Positions 1-21,581 of a stretch of DNA of 64,000 nucleotides are shown in pieces. Location: positions 372,001 through 436,000 of the forward strand of contig NZ_LN881722.1 in NCBI RefSeq assembly GCF_001457415.1, read 5' to 3'. The notes beneath the pieces are model-generated. The model saw only the letters and a list, made by a program, of their open reading frames with translations. It was not told the DNA's origin and made no database searches. Within the stretch, counting starts at the first letter, position 1. The number at the start of each line of letters is the position of its first letter. This stretch comes from Gorillibacterium timonense. Lineage in GTDB: Bacteria > Bacillota > Bacilli > Paenibacillales > NBRC-103111. The translations under genes were made by a program, and so were the position numbers.

Positions 1-1
1 C

Positions 2-517
2 GCGGGACTCGGGATCGCCTATGACTCCGATTTCAGTGAGTTGGAGCAGCTTCGCCGGGACAACCTGGAGCTGTTGGATCAATTGGTGATCTTGAGCGGC
101 GAGTCGAAGGGAATGGATGCGATCAGCTTCACCGACCTGACGGAATTCCTCCTCGCTTACGAGAAATCGATGCAAAGCGGCCTCTTCACTGGCAACGGGA
201 AACCAATCACGCAGAAGCTGCTGGATATTCTGAGCGGCACGTATAACGAGAATGCCTGGAACAAAGTGCTTGCGGACAAGGACCTGAAGATCAGCAAGGT
301 GCTTCGCGGCTTGGGCATCAAAGGCAAAGACATCACAAGAACCAATTCCCGCATCGCCTGGACCGTAGACCCGCTCTACCGCGCGCGTTTCGGACTCCTG
401 CTGGCCTACTTCAAGACGATCTTGGACAGCTCGGCCTTCTCCGGGATTGACCCTAGCAGCATCAAGCTGGAGACCCTGCTTCCTACCTTGTTGAAGGACA
501 GTCTCACGAATAAGTAA
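2..517 (+). CDS. Unknown protein, C-terminal part only
   Basis: The frame is open from base 2 to a TAA at 515-517, so the true start lies before the window; 171 residues are visible. A TTG at 41 is only an internal codon. The visible part is mixed helical, without membrane segments, cysteines or repeats, and ends in LKDSLTNK. I do not recognise the family. It has no clear terminator behind it, and the 486 bases that follow carry the promoter of the next operon, so it is probably not part of the EPS operon. Confidence 0.6.
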   Translation, partial: AGLGIAYDSDFSELEQLRRDNLELLDQLVILSGESKGMDAISFTDLTEFLLAYEKSMQSGLFTGNGKPITQKLLDILSGTYNENAWNKVLADKDLKISKVLRGLGIKGKDITRTNSRIAWTVDPLYRARFGLLLAYFKTILDSSAFSGIDPSSIKLETLLPTLLKDSLTNK

Positions 518-703
518 CGACTGGTGACTGGGGTGCCGCAAACGCAGCTCGTGCGGGAGCGGCCCCTAGATCCAAACCGGGCAACATGGAGGACGACATC
601 CCTGTGAACCGAGCGATCGGTGCAAAAAACGGCTGCTGTCCGGCTTCCGGCTAGTAATCGAATGATCGAAACCGGATTATGCAGGAACATGGCGAACGAG
701 GTT

Positions 704-761
704 AACTATCTTATAGGAGATAAATATTAATTTTATCAATATGATAGTTCATTCCTATAAA
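704..761 (+). promoter_or_regulatory. Candidate sigma-A promoter of the EPS operon with inverted repeat
   Basis: TTATCA (733-738) and TATAAA (756-761) are separated by 17 bp. An inverted repeat AACTATC (704-710) / GATAGTT (743-749) brackets the -35, its right arm lying in the spacer, as an operator might. Transcription would start near 768 and leave a leader of about 235 nt before galU. Confidence 0.45.
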
Positions 762-843
762 GATTGGTTCGTTTGAATGAATGGGTTGTTTTCATTGATA
801 CCACCGGTATACACCGGCAAGCGTCTTGTGCTGTTCGATATGG

Positions 844-940
844 CCTGAGCGGGCAGGCTTCGCGCGGCCCTCAAGCTCAGGGATCTCATGAAACGGTCCA
901 TCTCTTGACCCGCAGAGGGAAGGGCCGTCCCATGAGCATC
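844..940 (+). promoter_or_regulatory. Structured 5' leader RNA upstream of galU
   Basis: Two consecutive structures can be drawn. Hairpin 1 pairs CCTGAGC (844-850) with GCTCAGG (875-881), with an inner GGGC/GCCC. Hairpin 2 pairs GAT-CTCATG (882-890) with CATGAG-c-ATC (931-940), continues as ACGGTCC (893-899) with GGGCCGT (922-928, one G-U), and has CTCT/AGAG inside the loop. There is no U-run after either, so they are not plain terminators. I could not match them to a known riboswitch class. Confidence 0.5.
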
Positions 941-1003
941 TTAGAATCAGCCCTATGGTGCGCCGCAAGCATGCAGTCATCAAACCAATCGGAGGGATGC
1001 AAT

Positions 1004-1948
1004 GTGCAAAAAGTGAAGAAGGCGATTATTCCCGCTGCCGGTCTAGGCACCCGGTTCCTTCCGGCGACCAAGGCGATGCCGAAGGAGATGCTGCCCATCA
1101 TCGACAAACCGACGATCCAGTATATCGTCGAGGAAGCGGTGGAGTCCGGTATCGAGGACATCATCATCGTGACGGGCAAGGGGAAACGGGCGATTGAGGA
1201 CCATTTCGACCATGCGTTCGAGCTGGAGTCGAATCTGGAGATGAAAGGGAAGCTCAAGCTGCTTGAGGAGGTTCAGCGAACCTCCAAGGTGGATATCCAT
1301 TACATCCGGCAAAAAGAACCGAAGGGGCTCGGTCACGCCGTCTGGTGCGCCCGTCGGTTTATCGGGCAGGAGCCGTTCGCCGTTCTGCTCGGTGACGACA
1401 TCGTCCGGGCGGAGACCCCCTGCCTGAAGCAGATGATCACCCAGTACGAGGCGGTATCCTCCGCCATTCTCGGCGTTCAGCCGGTGCCGGACGGCGAAAC
1501 CGGGCGCTACGGGATCGTGGCTCCCGCCTCCCAGAACGGCCGCTTATACGAAGTGGCGGGCCTGGTCGAGAAGCCGCCGGCGGGACAAGCTCCCTCCAAC
1601 CTGGCCATCCTCGGCCGGTACATCCTTCCGCCGGAAATCTTCGGCATTCTGGACAGCCAGGAGGAAGGCTCCGGAGGCGAAATTCAACTGACCGACGCGA
1701 TTGCGCGTCTTGCGCTGGAACAGCAGGTGTACGCCTATAACTTCCAAGGAACCCGCTACGATGTCGGCGAGAAGCTCGGTTTTATCCTGACGACTCTCGA
1801 TTTTGCGGTGGCGAATCCCGAACTGAGAGGAGCGACCTTGAAGGCCATTCAAGAATTGCTGGTGAAGGAAGGGGCGGCTCCTGAGATCTTTCTCCGCGAT
1901 CTGCGCGCACGGGATGTAAGTGACTGGTCCTCTCGCTCCACAGGCTGA
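1004..1948 (+). CDS. galU: UTP--glucose-1-phosphate uridylyltransferase
   Basis: Makes UDP-glucose from UTP and glucose-1-phosphate in the cytosol, the precursor of glucosyl and galactosyl units in surface polymers. The N-terminus has the nucleotidyltransferase motif [20 protein letters not shown], followed by [14 protein letters not shown] and a GDD motif, all typical of bacterial GalU. The frame is open from 764, but the family start fits GTG at 1004, with a GGAGGG about 7 bases ahead; that gives 314 residues, near the usual 290-300. It is the first gene of the EPS operon and follows a long structured leader. Confidence 0.93.
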
Positions 1949-5247: not shown

Positions 5248-6583
5248 GCGAGTGCTCTTCCTCGGGGCTTTCCAGGAGCCCGGTGGGGAGGAGGAGGTCA
5301 TCACCTACCTGTACAAGAACCTGGACCGAGAGCGATACGAACCGTATCTATGCGGACCGTTCCGCCAGGATTTCTTTGACAAGCATCACATTCCTCGGGA
5401 GGAAATTCTTGAGCTGCCGATGACCGGCATGGGCGATTTGAAGTCTTGGCGGATGCTGATCGGGTATATCGACAAGCTGAACATCGACCTCGTGCATTCG
5501 CACGGCAATCGCGGTGGTCTGTTCGGTCGGCTTGCATCCCGATTGTCTCAAAGACGCCCGAAGTCGGTCTGGACCGTGCATCTGCTCATCGCGGAGAACA
5601 CCTTCACGATATCGCCGATGCAGAAGAAGGTGTACACCGCCGTCGAATACGGCCTCGGCCGCCGCTTCACCGATCATATCGTCGCGGTATCGGACGATCT
5701 GCGCGGGAAATACGCGCCGCACTGCCCGAAGACGGCAATCTCCACCATTCACAACGGAATTGACGTTCGCCGCTTTCATACGGACAAAGCCGAGAGGCCG
5801 GTGAACCGCGAGAGCATCAAGTTTGGCTTCGTGGCGCGGATGTCCAAGCAGAAGGGACTTCCCTATCTGATTGAAGCCTGGAAGAGCGTAACGGAGGAGC
5901 TGCGGGGAACCGGACTCAAGCCGGAGCTGATCCTCGCCGGGACGGGCGAGGAAGAGGCGCCGACGAAGGAATTGGTGAAGCGGTTCGGCTTGGACAGCTC
6001 CGTCCAGTTTCTCGGCTTTCGTACCGATATTCCGGAACTGCTCGCCGGAATGGATGTCCTGCTGCTGCCCTCGCTCTTCGAGGGGCTGCCGATGGTCATT
6101 CTGGAGAGCCTCGCTTCCGGCACGCCGGTCATCGCGACCCGCGTCAACGGAGTGCCGGAGGTGCTGGAGGATGGAACGAACGGCAGGCTGGTGGCTCCCG
6201 GGAACGCGGCGGAGCTGGCGGCGGCTATGATGGATTACCTCCGGCAGCCGCAGCTGATCCGCGCTCATGGCACAGCCGGGCAGAAGAAAGTGGCGGAAGG
6301 CTTCACCAAGGAGCAAATGCTTCAGAAGCATATGTCGCTCTATGACAAGCTGCTCGCAGGTGCTCCGGCAGCGCTGACGGACGGCGTCGGCGGCATGGCA
6401 GGAGCGGGGAGAGCCGGTAGCGGAGCTACGCCGGCCTCTGAAGCGAGTGCTTCGGCGATGAAAGCAGCTGGAGGCTCCTCCGCCGAAAGAGCCGCGTTGA
6501 CGGCGAAGGCCGCCCCCGCAGTGCAGACCGCCGCCAAGCGGCAAGCCTCCGCTCTGCCCGCCGGTAAAGGCGGCGTCCGATGA
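5240..6583 (+). CDS. Glycosyltransferase family 4 protein with alanine-rich tail
   Basis: GT4-type glycosyltransferase. Residues 1-370 hold both GT-B halves: acceptor side with HSHGNRGGLFGRLAS and donor side with LLLPSLFEGLPMVILESLASGTPVIATR. From about residue 372 to 447 the protein becomes a low-complexity tail rich in Ala, Gly and Ser that is not part of the fold. The start overlaps the previous gene by 8 bases and the stop forms ATGA with the flippase start. The tail is encoded by GC-rich DNA that continues into the N-terminus of the next gene. Confidence 0.88.
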   Translation: MRKRVLFLGAFQEPGGEEEVITYLYKNLDRERYEPYLCGPFRQDFFDKHHIPREEILELPMTGMGDLKSWRMLIGYIDKLNIDLVHSHGNRGGLFGRLASRLSQRRPKSVWTVHLLIAENTFTISPMQKKVYTAVEYGLGRRFTDHIVAVSDDLRGKYAPHCPKTAISTIHNGIDVRRFHTDKAERPVNRESIKFGFVARMSKQKGLPYLIEAWKSVTEELRGTGLKPELILAGTGEEEAPTKELVKRFGLDSSVQFLGFRTDIPELLAGMDVLLLPSLFEGLPMVILESLASGTPVIATRVNGVPEVLEDGTNGRLVAPGNAAELAAAMMDYLRQPQLIRAHGTAGQKKVAEGFTKEQMLQKHMSLYDKLLAGAPAALTDGVGGMAGAGRAGSGATPASEASASAMKAAGGSSAERAALTAKAAPAVQTAAKRQASALPAGKGGVR

Positions 6584-16439: not shown

Positions 16440-17987
16440 TCATTCACGCAGCCTCGACCGTTTCACCACGACTTGCATGGTCCGGTCCAACCGGCGTTTG
16501 CTCTTAGTGGAGCTGATTCTCTCAGGCTTGCCGTTTGCATCGTCGCGTGTTTGGCTGAGGACCCAGATGAGTCCAAGATGAGCCCAGAACATGGCGAGGG
16601 TATGGCCGGGAGAGAAATTGTAGGAGAACAGCAGCACAGCCGAACCGCCCAGCAGGCCGAGGAGATACCCTTTTCGTTTCGGGTTTGTCGTTCTGATCGC
16701 GGCTCGGAAGCCCTGAAAGAGAACCGACCCTATTAGTAGAAGGAACAGAGAAAGTCCGATGACTCCCGTATCATCTAGCACCGCCATGAACATGCTCGCG
16801 ACCCATTCGTCCGGATTCAAGTACTTGATGGAGAAATAACCGTTGCCCACGACCGGATGATTGTCGAGCCAGTGGGTGTAGGCGAGATTCAGCTTCTCAA
16901 CCCGGTATTTTCCCGTCCCTTCATCGCCGTTAAACAGGTTGGTCAATTTGGAGGACAGCAAGTTTTCTCTTCCCGACGTCTGATCAAAGACCTTTTCTAC
17001 CGCGACGAGAGTTGGTACCAGCAGCAGGAGCAGGGTAACCAGCAGCAGGACCGTTTTTGGCTGGAACAAGCGTTTGAAATAGAAGATAAACACAATCAGA
17101 AGGCCAAGTACGCTTCCGATCCATGCGGATCGCGTCCACCCCATGATGATCCCGACCACGCAGAGAACCAGACTGAGAAAGAGCACGACCGGATAACGAA
17201 CTTTTCGTTTGGATAGCAGCAGGGTTGCGATAAAAACAATCGTGACCCCCATGAAAGCGGAGAAGAGATTCGCTTCATACAAGCCTCCCCGCCAGGTGAT
17301 CGAGGTCCAGTTTGTTCCGCTAATTTGCCCCGTCATTAACCCGCCGTATTTCTCCCCGAACAAAAAGCTTCCGGTGAATTGGTTGTAGAGAAAACAGATC
17401 AGCGCGTATACACATTGGAATACACCTAAGCCGATATATAGATTGACGTACCGGTAAATGGCGCCCGTCTCAAAGGTGGCGAGTTGGCTGACCAGGAAAA
17501 AGCCCATAAAAGCAAAAGAAATCTGCAGGATTCCACTGACGGAGTAATCGAAGACCTGACTGTTGATATAGGACACGACGGATGCGTATAGGACGAAGAT
17601 CAGGAAGAGAACGCTTTGCGGATTGATCGTGAGCTTGATTCGTCGGCTTTTGTTGAGCAGAACATACAGGACACCCGATCCAATCGCGACCAACGCCATG
17701 ATCATTTCGGGCCGGAAGCTGCTGCTGGACAGATCGAGGGTCAATCGGTTGAAGGTGACGCTGATCAGATAGACCGTCATGGAAGCCTTCCAGGAAAAAA
17801 GCAGCCATGCGAATAGGGCGGCGACCGCAGCATAGAGGATATAAGTTGGATGGATGGCGAATGCCGTTGTGAGAAGGGCGGCGAACATGACGAGCAGAGA
17901 TGTTTTAGCGCCAAGCTTTCCTCTTTCCATCCATAAACGCGTTCTCTCTTCCATATAAAAGCCTAGGTTTCCTTTATCAACGCTCAT
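16440..17987 (-). CDS. O-antigen ligase/polymerase family protein, probable EPS Wzy
   Basis: 515-residue polytopic membrane protein with about 11-12 hydrophobic segments and the large extracytoplasmic loop typical of the Wzy_C/O-antigen ligase family (PF04932); IIMGWTRSAWIGSVLGLLIV and the HWLDNHPVVGNGYFSIKYLNPDEW loop are the recognisable parts. It probably polymerises lipid-linked repeat units on the outer face of the membrane, the step missing from the + strand operon. Start at 17987 follows a GGAG about 12 bases upstream; ATG 17954 is an alternative. It is transcribed alone from a promoter overlapping two TGATACAA operators. Confidence 0.85.
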   Translation of the reverse strand: MSVDKGNLGFYMEERTRLWMERGKLGAKTSLLVMFAALLTTAFAIHPTYILYAAVAALFAWLLFSWKASMTVYLISVTFNRLTLDLSSSSFRPEMIMALVAIGSGVLYVLLNKSRRIKLTINPQSVLFLIFVLYASVVSYINSQVFDYSVSGILQISFAFMGFFLVSQLATFETGAIYRYVNLYIGLGVFQCVYALICFLYNQFTGSFLFGEKYGGLMTGQISGTNWTSITWRGGLYEANLFSAFMGVTIVFIATLLLSKRKVRYPVVLFLSLVLCVVGIIMGWTRSAWIGSVLGLLIVFIFYFKRLFQPKTVLLLVTLLLLLVPTLVAVEKVFDQTSGRENLLSSKLTNLFNGDEGTGKYRVEKLNLAYTHWLDNHPVVGNGYFSIKYLNPDEWVASMFMAVLDDTGVIGLSLFLLLIGSVLFQGFRAAIRTTNPKRKGYLLGLLGGSAVLLFSYNFSPGHTLAMFWAHLGLIWVLSQTRDDANGKPERISSTKSKRRLDRTMQVVVKRSRLRE

Positions 17988-18079
17988 AACCTGCTTCCAC
18001 TCCCATCCGTTCGGATCTCCTCTTCGTTGCGCTACTCATCGGTTTGCTTTTTTACCGGTCGATGGAGCAATTTATATAT

Positions 18080-18116
18080 TGATACAAATTGTATCAGTAT
18101 ACCGATTGTATCACAA
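18080..18116 (-). promoter_or_regulatory. Promoter of the Wzy-like gene overlapping two 17-bp operators
   Basis: Read on the - strand, TTGTGA (18116-18111) and TACAAT (18093-18088) are 17 bp apart, and TGATACAAT forms an extended -10. The same bases contain the perfect palindrome TGATACAAATTGTATCA (18080-18096) and an adjacent related 17-mer, GTATACCGATTGTATCA (18097-18113). A protein bound there would cover both the -35 and -10. Confidence 0.7.
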
Positions 18117-18260
18117 AAGAGAGACTTTACCAAGAACCTAATAGGAAGCGGATATGAAGGAGAGAGAGAATGCGCTATTTTTAACAACTATCAGGCAGAT
18201 TTCGCGAGAATCATCACTTGAAAAGCTAACAGGGATTAGCAGCATTGAATCGTTAATCAA

Positions 18261-18277
18261 TGATACATATTGTATTA
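18261..18277. promoter_or_regulatory. Operator-like palindrome, third copy
   Basis: TGATACATATTGTATTA matches 15 of 17 positions of the palindrome at 18080. It lies about 180 bp ahead of the probable -10 of the phosphatase-Wzz-kinase operon. The 17988-18475 gap is AT-rich and otherwise holds only promoters and operators. Confidence 0.6.
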
Positions 18278-18375
18278 ATAGGATATGTAGTTCGGGGGAC
18301 ATAAAACAAAATATGTTGAAAATAAAAATATGTGGATAGAAATGAAGTCGAATCCTGAAGGGAATAGGACTCGAT

Positions 18376-18392
18376 GGCTACAAATTGTATCA
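18376..18392. promoter_or_regulatory. Operator-like palindrome, fourth copy
   Basis: GGCTACAAATTGTATCA matches 15 of 17 positions of the operator at 18080. Its centre is about 54 bp ahead of the TACAAT hexamer of the + strand promoter. Confidence 0.6.
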
Positions 18393-18432
18393 GAAGAACG
18401 CGACTTTCTTCATTCGAAGAGCAAGAGACAAT

Positions 18433-18443
18433 GGTGGTACAAT
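18433..18443 (+). promoter_or_regulatory. Extended -10 promoter of the cpsB-like operon
   Basis: TGGTACAAT (18435-18443) has the TGN of an extended -10 and TACAAT. No good -35 is present 17 bp ahead (CGAAGA); TTCGAA is 19 bp ahead. The start would be near 18450, giving a short leader with the G-rich ribosome binding site at 18460-18467. Confidence 0.4.
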
Positions 18444-18475
18444 GAGACAAAGTTTTATAGGGGGGGATTCTTTCC

Positions 18476-19240
18476 ATGGTCGATATTCATGCCCACCTTC
18501 TTCCCTTCCTGGATGACGGCTCCTCCAGTTTGGAGGAATCGCTGGAAATGGCCGACATGGCAGTGTCCGAAGGCATTACGGCGGTGATCGCCACCCCGCA
18601 CCATGCGAATGGGATTTATGACAATGAAGCCTCGCGAGTTCGGGAGGAGGTCGCTTCCTTGCAAAAGCTTCTGGAGCTCCGGAATATTCCCCTTAAGGTA
18701 GCTTCCGGCCAGGAGATCCGAGGATTCAACGACCTGCTGCGCGACTATGAACGGGGGACGCTGCTCACGCTGGCGGATTCGTCGTACCTGCTGTTGGAGT
18801 TCCCGTCCGGACAAGTCCCGGCGAAGGCGAAGGAATGGATTTATGAGCTGGGATTATCGGGCGTAACGGTGGTGATCGCGCATCCGGAACGCAACAAGGA
18901 GCTGGCCGCGTCCCCAGAGAAGCTGGCGGATTTCATTGAAGCGGGGGCGCTCGCCCAGGTAACCAGTCATTCTCTGACCGGAGGATTTGGGCGCTCCGTC
19001 CAGAAGACCGCTCTCCAGATGTGCCGCAGCCGGCTAATTCATTTTGTGGCTTCCGATGCTCATAACGTCAAGGCCCGCCCGTTTGCTCTTCGAGAAGCAT
19101 ATTCCTTGCTAGAAAAGGAAGCAGGGAAAGAGCTCGCCGATAGCTGCCGGAGAAATTCCGAGCTGCTGCTCGCAGGTGAGGCGATCCCTTATGAGGAGCC
19201 GCTGCTCCCGAAAAAACGGTGGTCTTTCTTTTCCAAATGA
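18476..19240 (+). CDS. CpsB/CapC-type manganese-dependent protein tyrosine phosphatase
   Basis: PHP-fold phosphatase of 254 residues that removes phosphate from the partner bacterial tyrosine kinase. Metal-binding motifs are visible in order: DIHAHLLPFLDDGS at the N-terminus, ATPHH near residue 42, IAHPERN near 139 and SDAHN near 190. It heads a unit with a Wzz-like activator and a BY-kinase, the usual Firmicute set (as in B. subtilis YwqE with YwqC/YwqD) that controls polymer length and export. The + strand promoter region carries two TGATACAA-type operators. Confidence 0.9.
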   Translation: MVDIHAHLLPFLDDGSSSLEESLEMADMAVSEGITAVIATPHHANGIYDNEASRVREEVASLQKLLELRNIPLKVASGQEIRGFNDLLRDYERGTLLTLADSSYLLLEFPSGQVPAKAKEWIYELGLSGVTVVIAHPERNKELAASPEKLADFIEAGALAQVTSHSLTGGFGRSVQKTALQMCRSRLIHFVASDAHNVKARPFALREAYSLLEKEAGKELADSCRRNSELLLAGEAIPYEEPLLPKKRWSFFSK

Positions 19241-19401
19241 ATCCAGACGAATGAAACTATTTACCGTATTCTCCCAAGGCTTCACTAGCATGGATTGATC
19301 CGATTCAAGGTCAGCCCTCATTCGGGTCTGGTTTTGCATTTGACATAGCATGGAGTCAACGGATGACAAGTTCAACTACCCAACAAGATCGGAGGTATCT
19401 A

Positions 19402-20154
19402 ATGGAATTAGAATTCAAGGACTACGTGAGAATCTTGCGCAAGCGGCTTCTCCTCATCGTGTCCATCACCCTGGTAAGCACGCTCGCTGCAGGCTTGATC
19501 AGTTATTTTGTCCTATCGCCGGTCTATGAGGCATCGACCAAGATGATCGTCAAGTCCAACGAACAGACGGGGAATCCCCAGCTCGACATCAATGCGATCA
19601 ACAGCAACCTGAAGCTCATCGATACTTACAAGGAAGTGATCAAGACACCGGCCATCATGGACGCCGTTGTGGCGGAGCATCCCGAATTCAACATGACCTC
19701 GGAGGAGCTGATCCAGAAGGTAAGGGTAAGCTCGGTCAATAACACCCAGGTCCTCACGCTGGTGATCCAGGACGGCGATTACAACAAAGCCGCGCAGATG
19801 GTCAACGCGATTACCGAGGTGTTCAAGCAAGAGATCCCCAAGATCATGCTCGTGGACAACATCACGATCCTCAATCAGGCCAAACTGAACGCCGATCCGG
19901 TTCCCGTGAAACCAAACAAGGTCATGAATATCGCTATCGCGTTCTTGCTGGGGTTGTTCATTTCGGCAGGGCTCGCGTTCCTGCTGGAATTCCTGGACGA
20001 TTCCGTCAAGACGGAAGCGGACATCGAAGCTCTGCTCGGTTTGCCGACTTTGGCCGCCATCGCCCGCCAGAAGCCAGAGGACTTCAAGACTCAAGCTTCC
20101 ACGGAGCTAAAAGTGAAGGCAGGTGTTAAAGAGCATGCCACCCTCAACCAATAA
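19402..20154 (+). CDS. Wzz-family chain-length regulator and kinase activator
   Basis: 250 residues with two membrane segments (about 20-40 and 175-195) enclosing an extracytoplasmic domain: the Wzz topology of CapA/YwqC-type proteins. The N-terminus ELEFKDYVRILRKRLLLI is typical, and PVPVKPNKVMNIAIAFLLG marks the second transmembrane segment. GGAGGT (19391-19396) selects ATG 19402 over 19363. The short cytosolic C-terminus would contact the separate kinase encoded next, whose reading frame overlaps this end by 20 bases. Confidence 0.9.
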   Translation: MELEFKDYVRILRKRLLLIVSITLVSTLAAGLISYFVLSPVYEASTKMIVKSNEQTGNPQLDINAINSNLKLIDTYKEVIKTPAIMDAVVAEHPEFNMTSEELIQKVRVSSVNNTQVLTLVIQDGDYNKAAQMVNAITEVFKQEIPKIMLVDNITILNQAKLNADPVPVKPNKVMNIAIAFLLGLFISAGLAFLLEFLDDSVKTEADIEALLGLPTLAAIARQKPEDFKTQASTELKVKAGVKEHATLNQ

Positions 20155-20818
20155 ACGAATGCTCATCACCCTTGAGAATCCCAAGTCGCCGATCTCCGAG
20201 TCCTATCGCATGCTGCGGAGCAATCTCGACTTCACCTCGTTCGACAACAACGAGAAGATTCTGATGGTCACCTCCGCCGGTCCATCGGAGGGGAAGTCGA
20301 CTACAACGACCAATCTGGCCACCGTCTATGCACAGTCGGACAAGCGAGTCTTGATCGTCGATGCCGATCTGCGCAAGCCGACCGTCCATCTGTCGTTCAA
20401 TCGCTCGAACCGGAACGGCTTGTCCAACATCCTCGTCGGTCAGGCCGAGTGGAAGGAATGTATCCAGAGCAGCGGAATCGACAACCTGTCAATCATTCCC
20501 TCGGGTCCGATTCCCCCTAATCCGTCTGAATTGCTCTCATCCAAAAGGATGAAGAAATTCATCGAAGAGGTGAAGGATGAATTCGACATCATCCTGTTCG
20601 ATACCTCGCCGATTCTGGCGGTCACCGACGCCCAGGTCGTCGCTGCTTTTTGCAGCGGGGTTATCCTGGTCGTTGACGCCGGCAAGACCAAGAAAGACAC
20701 GCTATCCAAAGCCAAGCACACCCTGGAACGCGCCGATGCGCGCATTCTCGGCGTCGTGCTCAACAACATAAGCCGCTCTAAGGGCGACTCGTATTACTAC
20801 TATTATTACGGAACGTAA
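20135..20818 (+). CDS. Bacterial tyrosine kinase, CpsD/CapB type
   Basis: Cytosolic BY-kinase of 227 residues. Walker A is TSAGPSEGKSTTTTNLATV, Walker A' VLIVDADLRKP and Walker B IILFDTSPIL. The C-terminus ends in a cluster of six tyrosines, the autophosphorylation tail. It needs the Wzz-like protein for activity and is reversed by the phosphatase upstream. ATG 20135 is preferred to GTG 20123 by spacing from AAGGCAGG. A strong terminator follows. Confidence 0.92.
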   Translation: MPPSTNKRMLITLENPKSPISESYRMLRSNLDFTSFDNNEKILMVTSAGPSEGKSTTTTNLATVYAQSDKRVLIVDADLRKPTVHLSFNRSNRNGLSNILVGQAEWKECIQSSGIDNLSIIPSGPIPPNPSELLSSKRMKKFIEEVKDEFDIILFDTSPILAVTDAQVVAAFCSGVILVVDAGKTKKDTLSKAKHTLERADARILGVVLNNISRSKGDSYYYYYYGT

Positions 20819-20840
20819 GAGAGTCGTTATCAAACGGATT

Positions 20841-20897
20841 AACGAATAGCGAAGCCCCCCTTTGGTGAAGAAAAGGGGGGCTTCGCTATTCGTTTTT
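20841..20897 (+). terminator. Strong intrinsic terminator after the kinase gene
   Basis: AACGAATAGCGAAGCCCCCC and its exact reverse complement pair over about 23 bp round a short loop, followed by a run of six T. Confidence 0.95.
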
Positions 20898-20931
20898 TAC
20901 CCTCGCATCGATTCCGCTAGATTCATCCAGT

Positions 20932-21459
20932 CTATAGTGCATGAAGCTTTGCTACTTGCGCTTTCGCTGGCAACTCCTTAATCCTTCTCGCCGGAACCCC
21001 CGCATACAGGCCGTTCGGCTCGCAATCCCGGTGAACGACCGCACCGGCGGCAATGACGCAGCCCGCGCCTATCGTCACTCCGGGCAGGATGACGGCGCGT
21101 GTGCCGATCCAGCAGCCGTCTTCGATGCGAATGGGCAGGCCGATCGGCTTGCCCGCCCTTTGCTCGGCTCCGCCCATTTCATGAGTAGACGCACAGAGCA
21201 TCACCTCCATGCCGAGAGAAACGCCCTTGCCGATCGTGATCTCCCCGTGGTTTTCGAAATAGCAGCCGTAGTTCACGAAGGAGCGTTCTCCAATCCGGAT
21301 CCGGTTGCCGCTGAAAAAACAGCGCGGCGATAGAAACCGGGTCCGCACATCGATTCCGGCGGAACGGTATAGGGCGTGTCTCAACCGGGAAGGTACAAGC
21401 GAAGAAGCGGCGAGTCCGTTTACGATAAGCTTGCGATAGAGGGTCTGCCATTTGGCCAT
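20932..21459 (-). CDS. Hexapeptide-repeat (LbetaH) acyltransferase
   Basis: 175-residue left-handed beta-helix acyltransferase of the WcaF/maltose-acetyltransferase kind. Hexapeptide turns are visible (GNRIRIGERSFVNYG, GEITIGKGVSLG, DGCWIGTRAVILPGVTIGAG), with the catalytic-type His in STHEMGG and the C-terminal AGVPARRIKEL. It probably acetylates an EPS sugar, since it lies beside the kinase operon and shares its tandem operator with the Wzy-like gene. The substrate is unknown. It is transcribed alone toward the kinase terminator. Confidence 0.87.
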   Translation of the reverse strand: MAKWQTLYRKLIVNGLAASSLVPSRLRHALYRSAGIDVRTRFLSPRCFFSGNRIRIGERSFVNYGCYFENHGEITIGKGVSLGMEVMLCASTHEMGGAEQRAGKPIGLPIRIEDGCWIGTRAVILPGVTIGAGCVIAAGAVVHRDCEPNGLYAGVPARRIKELPAKAQVAKLHAL

Positions 21460-21495
21460 CGTCTCGCCTCCTGTTCAGATTGGGGAAGAGTGCCC

Positions 21496-21537
21496 CGATT
21501 GTAGATACCCGATAGTAGATACCCGATTGTAGATAAG
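21496..21537. repeat. Three 14-bp direct repeats between operator and acetyltransferase start
   Basis: CGATTGTAGATACC (21496), CGATAGTAGATACC (21510) and CGATTGTAGATAAG (21524) follow each other without gaps. They resemble the half-site CGATTGTATC of the operators next to them, so they may be further weak binding sites. Confidence 0.6.
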
Positions 21538-21542
21538 ACGAG

Positions 21543-21581
21543 TGATACAATATGTATCTGTATACTGATTGTATCTTTCAA
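21543..21581 (-). promoter_or_regulatory. Tandem 17-bp operators upstream of the acetyltransferase
   Basis: TGATACAATATGTATCT (21543-21559) is followed directly by GTATACTGATTGTATCT (21560-21576), the same two-site layout as at 18080-18113 and at a similar distance from the - strand start codon (84 versus 93 bases). A - strand TTGAAA (21581-21576) may be the -35; the -10 is less clear. Confidence 0.65.

Follow-up and report, generated by a model that had tools for sequence, protein, structure and literature searches.

A palindromic operator at exopolysaccharide genes of Gorillibacterium timonense and its order, with a phage-type XRE protein as its predicted repressor

The stretch analysed, called the window below, comprises 64,000 nucleotides of the Gorillibacterium timonense genome (5.26 Mb) and corresponds to C5:372001-436000, C5 being the contig that holds it. 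It includes genes of an exopolysaccharide (EPS) region in which copies of a 17-bp palindrome, TGATAC-N5-GTATCA, treated here as an operator, precede three units: the Wzy_C gene (wzy), the cpsB-wzz-cpsD operon and the gene of a hexapeptide acetyltransferase (Table 1). The gene of a 122-residue XRE-family protein, the predicted reader of the palindrome, lies 2.7 kb to the left of the window, with the frame of a small unannotated protein beside it. Genomes of relatives are labelled with G-numbers (G000 is the window's genome) and fetched loci with L-numbers, and gene starts were assigned mechanically.

A matrix derived from 322 distinct sites in relatives was used to score the operator copies. 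Palindromes and related matches in the window numbered 8 when both strands were counted (4 places), whereas dinucleotide shuffles of the window led to an expectation of 0.07; this upholds the perfect copy at 18080 and the recurrence of related sites described in the initial annotation. That annotation had counted six copies in the EPS region. Four of them are sound or fair by their sequence scores, whereas those at 18097 and 21560 are half-conserved only, and three more copies outside the window had been missed. In the tandem pairs of adjacent 17-mers, therefore, a strong member (18080 or 21543) has a half-conserved neighbour; the distances given for the wzy start (93 bp) and the acetyltransferase start (84 bp) were correct. 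The sole further window match of at least 9 bits, at 5333 (13.5 bits), falls within a glycosyltransferase frame, and single-base-shuffled windows gave a mean of 0.14 matches at or above this score. The genome-wide search that had been proposed, with up to three mismatches allowed, returned 11 places, 6 of them in the 77 kb around the EPS genes. The 5 matches elsewhere are at chance level, because the reversed control also gave 5 rows in the whole genome, and the credible sites of this genome are confined to the 77 kb.

An origin of the repeats as chance AT-rich palindromes or as a mobile repeat would suit the weak units at 18097 and 21560 and the scattered three-mismatch matches that only equal the reversed control. 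It was rejected on the counts against shuffles and reversed controls, and the excess in the window, the order-wide excess over control reported below and the intergenic position of 176 of 203 distinct sites leave it a negligible probability. The 203 sites come from fetched neighbourhoods chosen around sites and XRE genes; a start codon lay within 350 bp of 127 of them (median 75 bp). A second cpsB, 75% identical, begins at C5:447172 (L013:7173 onwards) and carries a degenerate copy of the cpsB promoter region with its operators. Near-copies of CCCGATTGTAGATA were noted by eye at 21497-21535, beside the acetyltransferase operator.

Membership of the order and of its families (f1, f10) follows the kinship labels of the genome collection. 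The exact palindrome was present in 76 of the 98 genomes of the order. With one mismatch allowed, sites exceeded the reversed control in five genomes selected either because their counts were high or to serve as reference: 58 against 3 in G033, 42 against 7 in G056, 25 against 3 in G021, 20 against 4 in G059 and 9 against 3 in G000. The XRE protein came to notice among genes adjoining operators in several relatives, with an orthologue 57% identical in the window's genome. It contains an HTH_3 helix-turn-helix (HTH) domain (64.4 bits, Pfam cut-off 23); the only curated Pfam and NCBIfam families above cut-off were generic HTH ones, and the RstR phage repressor subfamily NF041951 (cut-off 80 bits) was missed at 66.1 and 65.3 bits. 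The nearest named protein, from Gorillibacterium sp. sgz500922, is 93% identical.

When orthologues were called in the 98 genomes at an expectation value (E) of 1e-36 or lower, the 74 genomes with XRE contained 249 exact sites, or 0.507 per Mb (reversed control 0.006 per Mb, 3 copies), with at least one site in 70 of the 74. The 24 genomes without XRE contained 7, or 0.060 per Mb (control 0.026), and the difference in site density was highly significant (Mann-Whitney p 3e-11). The same division was seen within family f1 (188 sites in 51 genomes with XRE, 0 in 8 others) and within f10 (25 in 10, 2 in 7). Site number follows XRE and not EPS, since 18 genomes with XRE and no cpsB held 50 sites while 19 with cpsB and no XRE held 4 (p 7e-6); the presence of cpsB or EPS genes was accordingly ruled out as its driver.

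The initial annotation had suggested looking for XRE genes preceded by the same site. A site with at most one mismatch lay within 400 bp upstream of 40 of the 70 distinct XRE orthologues and within 1.5 kb on either side of 59. Nineteen of the 70 are divergent from a neighbouring cpsB, and 10 of these have a site in between. A further set of named loci, the best 80 of 324 (Paenibacillus, Cohnella, Thermobacillus and one metagenome-assembled genome, some of them the same genomes as in the set of 98), contained 184 sites against 0 reversed controls, with at least one site in 74 of the 80 and a site within 400 bp upstream of XRE in 43. In the window's genome the interval from XRE to the small gene contains one operator copy, and a perfect copy is found 1.1 kb away. 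The recognition helix of XRE is near-invariant, (S/T)RA(S/A)LSHYE. Across the class, strong XRE matches (E below 1e-50) occurred in 16 of 299 genomes, all of the same order, with 9 weaker ones. The operator itself matched in 86 of the 299; after removal of the 27 genomes of the order itself (21 of which matched) 65 of 272 were left, 48 of them with a single copy.

Viral contigs were scanned for GATACAAATTGTATC, which we take to be the PBSX operator of Bacillus subtilis, although this sequence was found in no open paper searched. Among the matches listed there were 80 loci (119 stretches), 7 of which encode an XRE-like protein (E<1e-6); their helices include SRARYSHYENGRSEPD. Two or more sites were present in 5 of the 7 loci with the XRE helix SRA.YSH(Y/F/I)EN, compared with 2 of the 73 without it. 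One contig contributes two near-identical stretches to the seven, and contexts recur among some of the others; once repeats were removed, the counts became 4 of 6 and 2 of 68. The occurrence of a similar recognition helix with the same operator in viruses supports both the pairing of XRE with its operator and a phage origin, and it favours the kinship with PBSX-type Xre operators that had been proposed from the motif.

Co-occurrence, the position of the XRE gene and the sites at XRE genes thus back the earlier guess of an XRE-family regulator of EPS. Set against it are four genomes with an XRE orthologue and no exact site (G007, G026, G037 and G083), and the place of the XRE-side operator in the window's genome, which lies 360 bp away from the start of XRE and nearer the small gene. 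The palindrome might be read by some other transcription factor that accompanies XRE, with XRE as a passenger, as co-occurrence and neighbourhood do not prove binding and proteins with a SinI domain are found in 43 of the 98 genomes, that of the window included. This is quite unlikely: sites are independent of cpsB and of SinI (119 sites in 39 genomes with XRE and no SinI, 0 sites in 8 with SinI and no XRE), and in viral regions a similar helix accompanies the same operator. The same independence from SinI-domain genes ruled out SinR as the reader of the sites. The SinI-domain matches of the window's genome, at C7:156990, C7:157429 and C5:278486, lie outside the EPS region.

The placement of operators relative to promoters in the window's genome and relatives was examined for 78 oriented sites, sites with starts on both sides being left out, of which 50 had a promoter-like match above the set score. 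Of these pairs, 28 had the operator overlapping the promoter and 20 had it immediately past the -10 on the downstream side; in only 2 was it upstream of the -35. In 13 of the 50 it sits between TTGACA-like and -10 hexamers, as in TTGACA-17-mer-TAAATT; the spacer is 17 in ten cases and 18 in three, one of the latter being the copy at C5:370446. Several have a second operator 33-37 bp away. At wzy both operator units (18080-18113) overlap the promoter match, in a segment (17900-18560) with 3 promoter-like sites against 1.6 expected. The one-sidedness of the placement and the operator-in-spacer form together argue for repression by occlusion. Overlap by itself is a modest indication, because random anchors overlapped promoters 17 times on average and 26 times at most, compared with the 28 observed; the control is rough, and promoters that carry two sites enter the count twice. 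A further difficulty for repression is that both cpsB-side sites (18261 and 18376) are placed well ahead of what may be a -10 (TG-TACAAT, near 18439), a position that would also fit an activator, and they may have an activating role there. XRE might then bind the sites as an activator, or in both capacities, at the EPS promoters, and the second cpsB does retain a counterpart of the nearer cpsB-side site. Such a role is improbable as a general account, given the 2 of 50 sites upstream of a -35 and the close structural relatives of XRE found with Foldseek, which are phage repressors, DdrO and SinR. It is highly probable, as a prediction from sequence, that the phage-type XRE protein binds TGATAC-N5-GTATCA and represses EPS promoters.

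Short open reading frames around XRE genes revealed an unannotated family of 46-67 residues with the core LDI..(I/V)(L/M).Q(L/C)GI.P.K. A member was found in 125 of the 171 XRE-containing loci fetched, which overlap, compared with 2 of 92 without XRE; per distinct XRE sequence it was found in 83 of 117. Of 100 distinct small proteins within 2.5 kb of XRE, 63 were convergent, 37 divergent and none on the same strand. In whole genomes the family occurred in 56 of the 74 with XRE and in 0 of the 24 without (p 8e-12), and the best match lay within 1.5 kb of the best XRE match in 37 of the 56, on the opposite strand in all 37. The family looks coding, because differences per site were lower at nonsynonymous (pN) than at synonymous (pS) positions in 73 of 75 related pairs (pooled pN/pS 0.40, pairs not independent). 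No Pfam or NCBIfam family fitted any of ten proteins scanned. The AlphaFold model contains two short helices at the conserved part (predicted local distance difference test score, pLDDT, of about 83-93 there and 71 on average). In the window's genome the member is a frame of 67 residues, which a leave-one-out family model ranked first of the 2472 frames of G000 sequence examined (E 2e-4, next 0.76); between it and XRE lie a TATAAT and then the operator at C5:369691. A 145-residue neighbour suspected by eye to be PilZ-like gave no Pfam match in two members, and this identity was dropped.

The small protein is proposed as an antirepressor of XRE because XRE resembles the phage phi106 repressor, solved together with its antirepressor AimX, and because the two genes are paired; from this analysis we consider the role slightly better than an even call. 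Several findings pull the other way. In 19 of the 56 genomes the best small-gene match lay on a different contig from XRE or over 1.5 kb from it, and the gene was undetected in 18 of the 74 with XRE. The 67-residue frame is weakly similar to the family, ranking 136 of 168 reported among all fetched short frames (E 0.0013), and a search of a protein collection with its product returned that copy only. A good operator was present within 250 bp upstream of 44 of 105 small proteins, compared with 249 of 1934 other short frames there. The 19 distant matches leave substantial room, short of an even chance, for XRE to repress while the small protein is another target or a co-repressor; the pairing within 1.5 kb in 37 of 56 genomes, always on opposite strands, the absence from all 24 genomes without XRE, the model of two short helices and the phi106 precedent speak for the antirepressor instead.

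Table 1. Operators, promoter match and genes in and around the window. Positions are those of the window unless the contig (C5) is given.
Feature	Position	Strand	Basis and remarks
XRE gene, 122 residues	C5:368982-369347	-	2.7 kb left of window
Operator TGATACATTACGTAACA	C5:369691	.	left of window; one mismatch to TGATAC-N5-GTATCA
Small-family frame, 67 residues	C5:369847-370050		family model; divergent from XRE
Operator, perfect copy	C5:370446	.	left of window
3' end of unknown-family gene, signal-peptide-like start (by eye)	1-517	+	gene begins C5:370709
galU-type nucleotidyltransferase frame, start uncertain	764-1948	+	first gene of large operon
O-antigen ligase/polymerase (Wzy_C), wzy	16440-17987	-	family match
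Operator, perfect palindrome TGATACAAATTGTATCA	18080-18096	.	26.7 bits; covers -10-like TACAAT of wzy promoter match (minus)
Sigma-A-like promoter of wzy, TTGTGA-17-TACAAT, TG before -10	18088-18116	-	consensus match only
Half-conserved second operator unit GTATACCGATTGTATCA	18097-18113	.	9.4 bits
Operator	18261-18277	.	22.7 bits; 1 mismatch to TGATAC-N5-GTATCA, 2 to TGATACAAATTGTATCA
Partial operator	18376-18392	.	12.4 bits; 2 mismatches to TGATACAAATTGTATCA; counterpart before second cpsB (L013 near 7082)
cpsB/capC-type tyrosine phosphatase	18476-19240	+	CpsB_CapC 2.7e-56
Wzz-type chain-length protein	19363-20154	+	family match
CpsD-type tyrosine autokinase	20123-20818	+	family match
Hexapeptide-repeat acetyltransferase	20932-21459	-	family match
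Operator	21543-21559	.	22.6 bits; 2 mismatches to TGATACAAATTGTATCA (minus strand); 84 bp before acetyltransferase start
Half-conserved second unit	21560-21576	.	below 9 bits
Operator TGATACGAATTGTATTG	C5:446959	.	before second cpsB

The large galU operon had been described as lacking the site and thought to be controlled apart from the polymer-length and export genes, and this is not supported. The preceding gene, which begins at C5:370709, has the perfect operator C5:370446 ahead of it inside a promoter-like spacer (TTGACA-N18-TAAAGT), and neither a terminator (chance expectation 0.7) nor a plus-strand promoter turned up in a simple scan of window positions 400-1100. In G021, moreover, an operator occupying the spacer of a TTGACA-17-TAGAGT match lies 90 bp before the start of a galU-type gene (named by eye). 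In relatives the operator also precedes genes for secreted-type proteins, glycosyltransferases, LytR-CpsA-Psr proteins and a short tyrosine recombinase. A Pfam tally of 59 first downstream genes (59 of 80 frames) was mixed, with 6 Phage_integrase, 5 Wzz and 3 CpsB members and most families represented once. The neighbours scanned around XRE and the EPS locus were EPS, two-component and transporter-type genes, and no plasmid records were found for a neighbouring pilB-type gene.

Three kinds of gene found near XRE or its operators are recorded as side observations. A single-domain tyrosine recombinase of about 170 residues, FimB-like in size, adjoins XRE in 26 of the 80 named loci; two members (L205:4565-5083, minus strand, and L061:4124-4648, plus strand) both match Pfam Phage_integrase, some members have operators just upstream, and phase variation of EPS is possible. 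A 64-residue SinI-domain protein (L198:6663-6857, Pfam SinI 8e-9), whose cluster occurs in 8 named loci, has XRE operators shortly upstream, and a link between the two matrix switches is possible. Short relatives of XRE with the HTH only (about 62-69 aligned residues) lie near EPS-type operators at G021:C1:4096832, G061:C2:563712 and G069:C43:26411, and are possible competitors for the operator.

In the mechanism proposed, the 122-residue XRE would occupy the operators at the EPS locus and block their sigma-A promoters; the 67-residue protein, whose gene stands behind an operator, would inactivate XRE and so release them. The data show the sites and their spread, the way they track the XRE gene, their position on promoter-like sequences and the conserved small gene on the opposite strand; we infer the binding of the sites, the repression that follows from it and the inactivation by the small protein. 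For the order as a whole (Paenibacillus, Cohnella, Thermobacillus and kin) we give about an even chance to a joint reading in which a phage immunity switch has been domesticated to run a matrix and surface regulon: the operator of a PBSX-type Xre would be built into the promoter spacer, and a new family of antirepressors of about 50 residues, encoded on the opposite strand and itself repressed, would oppose that Xre, which would make a double-negative and potentially bistable slime switch unrelated by sequence to SinR-SinI. Paenibacillus and its kin produce useful exopolysaccharides. If the reading is true, the order gains its own slime regulator and the operator that goes with it, targets that can be listed in any genome and a small protein by which the regulator could be tuned, and a phage lysogeny switch has been reused for biofilm control. 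A 2021 paper on EPS of Paenibacillus polymyxa looks to Bacillus subtilis SinR for clues to regulation (PMC7911366). No title on the XRE regulator or its operator was found in the open literature searched, subscription papers being mostly outside this scope and absence from print unproven.

When the AlphaFold model of XRE (mean pLDDT 90) was compared with known structures, the first Foldseek rank went to the phi106 repressor solved with AimX (PDB 9sf2, 9iaq). The two sequences match over XRE residues 4-120 (phmmer E 4.1e-11, about 26% identity); VIA-align covered mostly residues 1-67, the HTH, and the likeness of the C-terminal part rests on Foldseek and phmmer. The phi106 system is thus alike in its repressor, over the whole length, and in having a small antirepressor, for which there is a candidate here; the likeness is that of the XRE protein, and here host genes would be the targets. 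The DNA-binding domain of ImmR from ICEBs1 (PDB 7t8i) is 43% identical to that of XRE over 63 columns, but no integrative element was seen among the neighbours scanned. SinR-SinI of Bacillus subtilis also combines an XRE repressor of matrix genes, alike in HTH fold, with a small protein nearby. It differs in that XRE gave no match to SinI (PF08671), nor did ten small proteins scanned at E<=1, and the SinR box is different from TGATAC-N5-GTATCA. The PBSX-type Xre repressors of Bacillus prophages, another of the closest known systems, share the operator core, the recognition helix SRA.YSH(Y/F/I)EN.R.EPD as it occurs in viral contigs with the operator, and the presence of several operators at the repressor gene, a likeness drawn from viral contigs and not from the B. 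subtilis PBSX protein itself. One clear difference is that, among the neighbours scanned, XRE does not lie in a prophage controlling phage genes: it is a chromosomal gene beside an EPS locus, and its predicted targets are EPS and secreted-type genes instead of phage genes.

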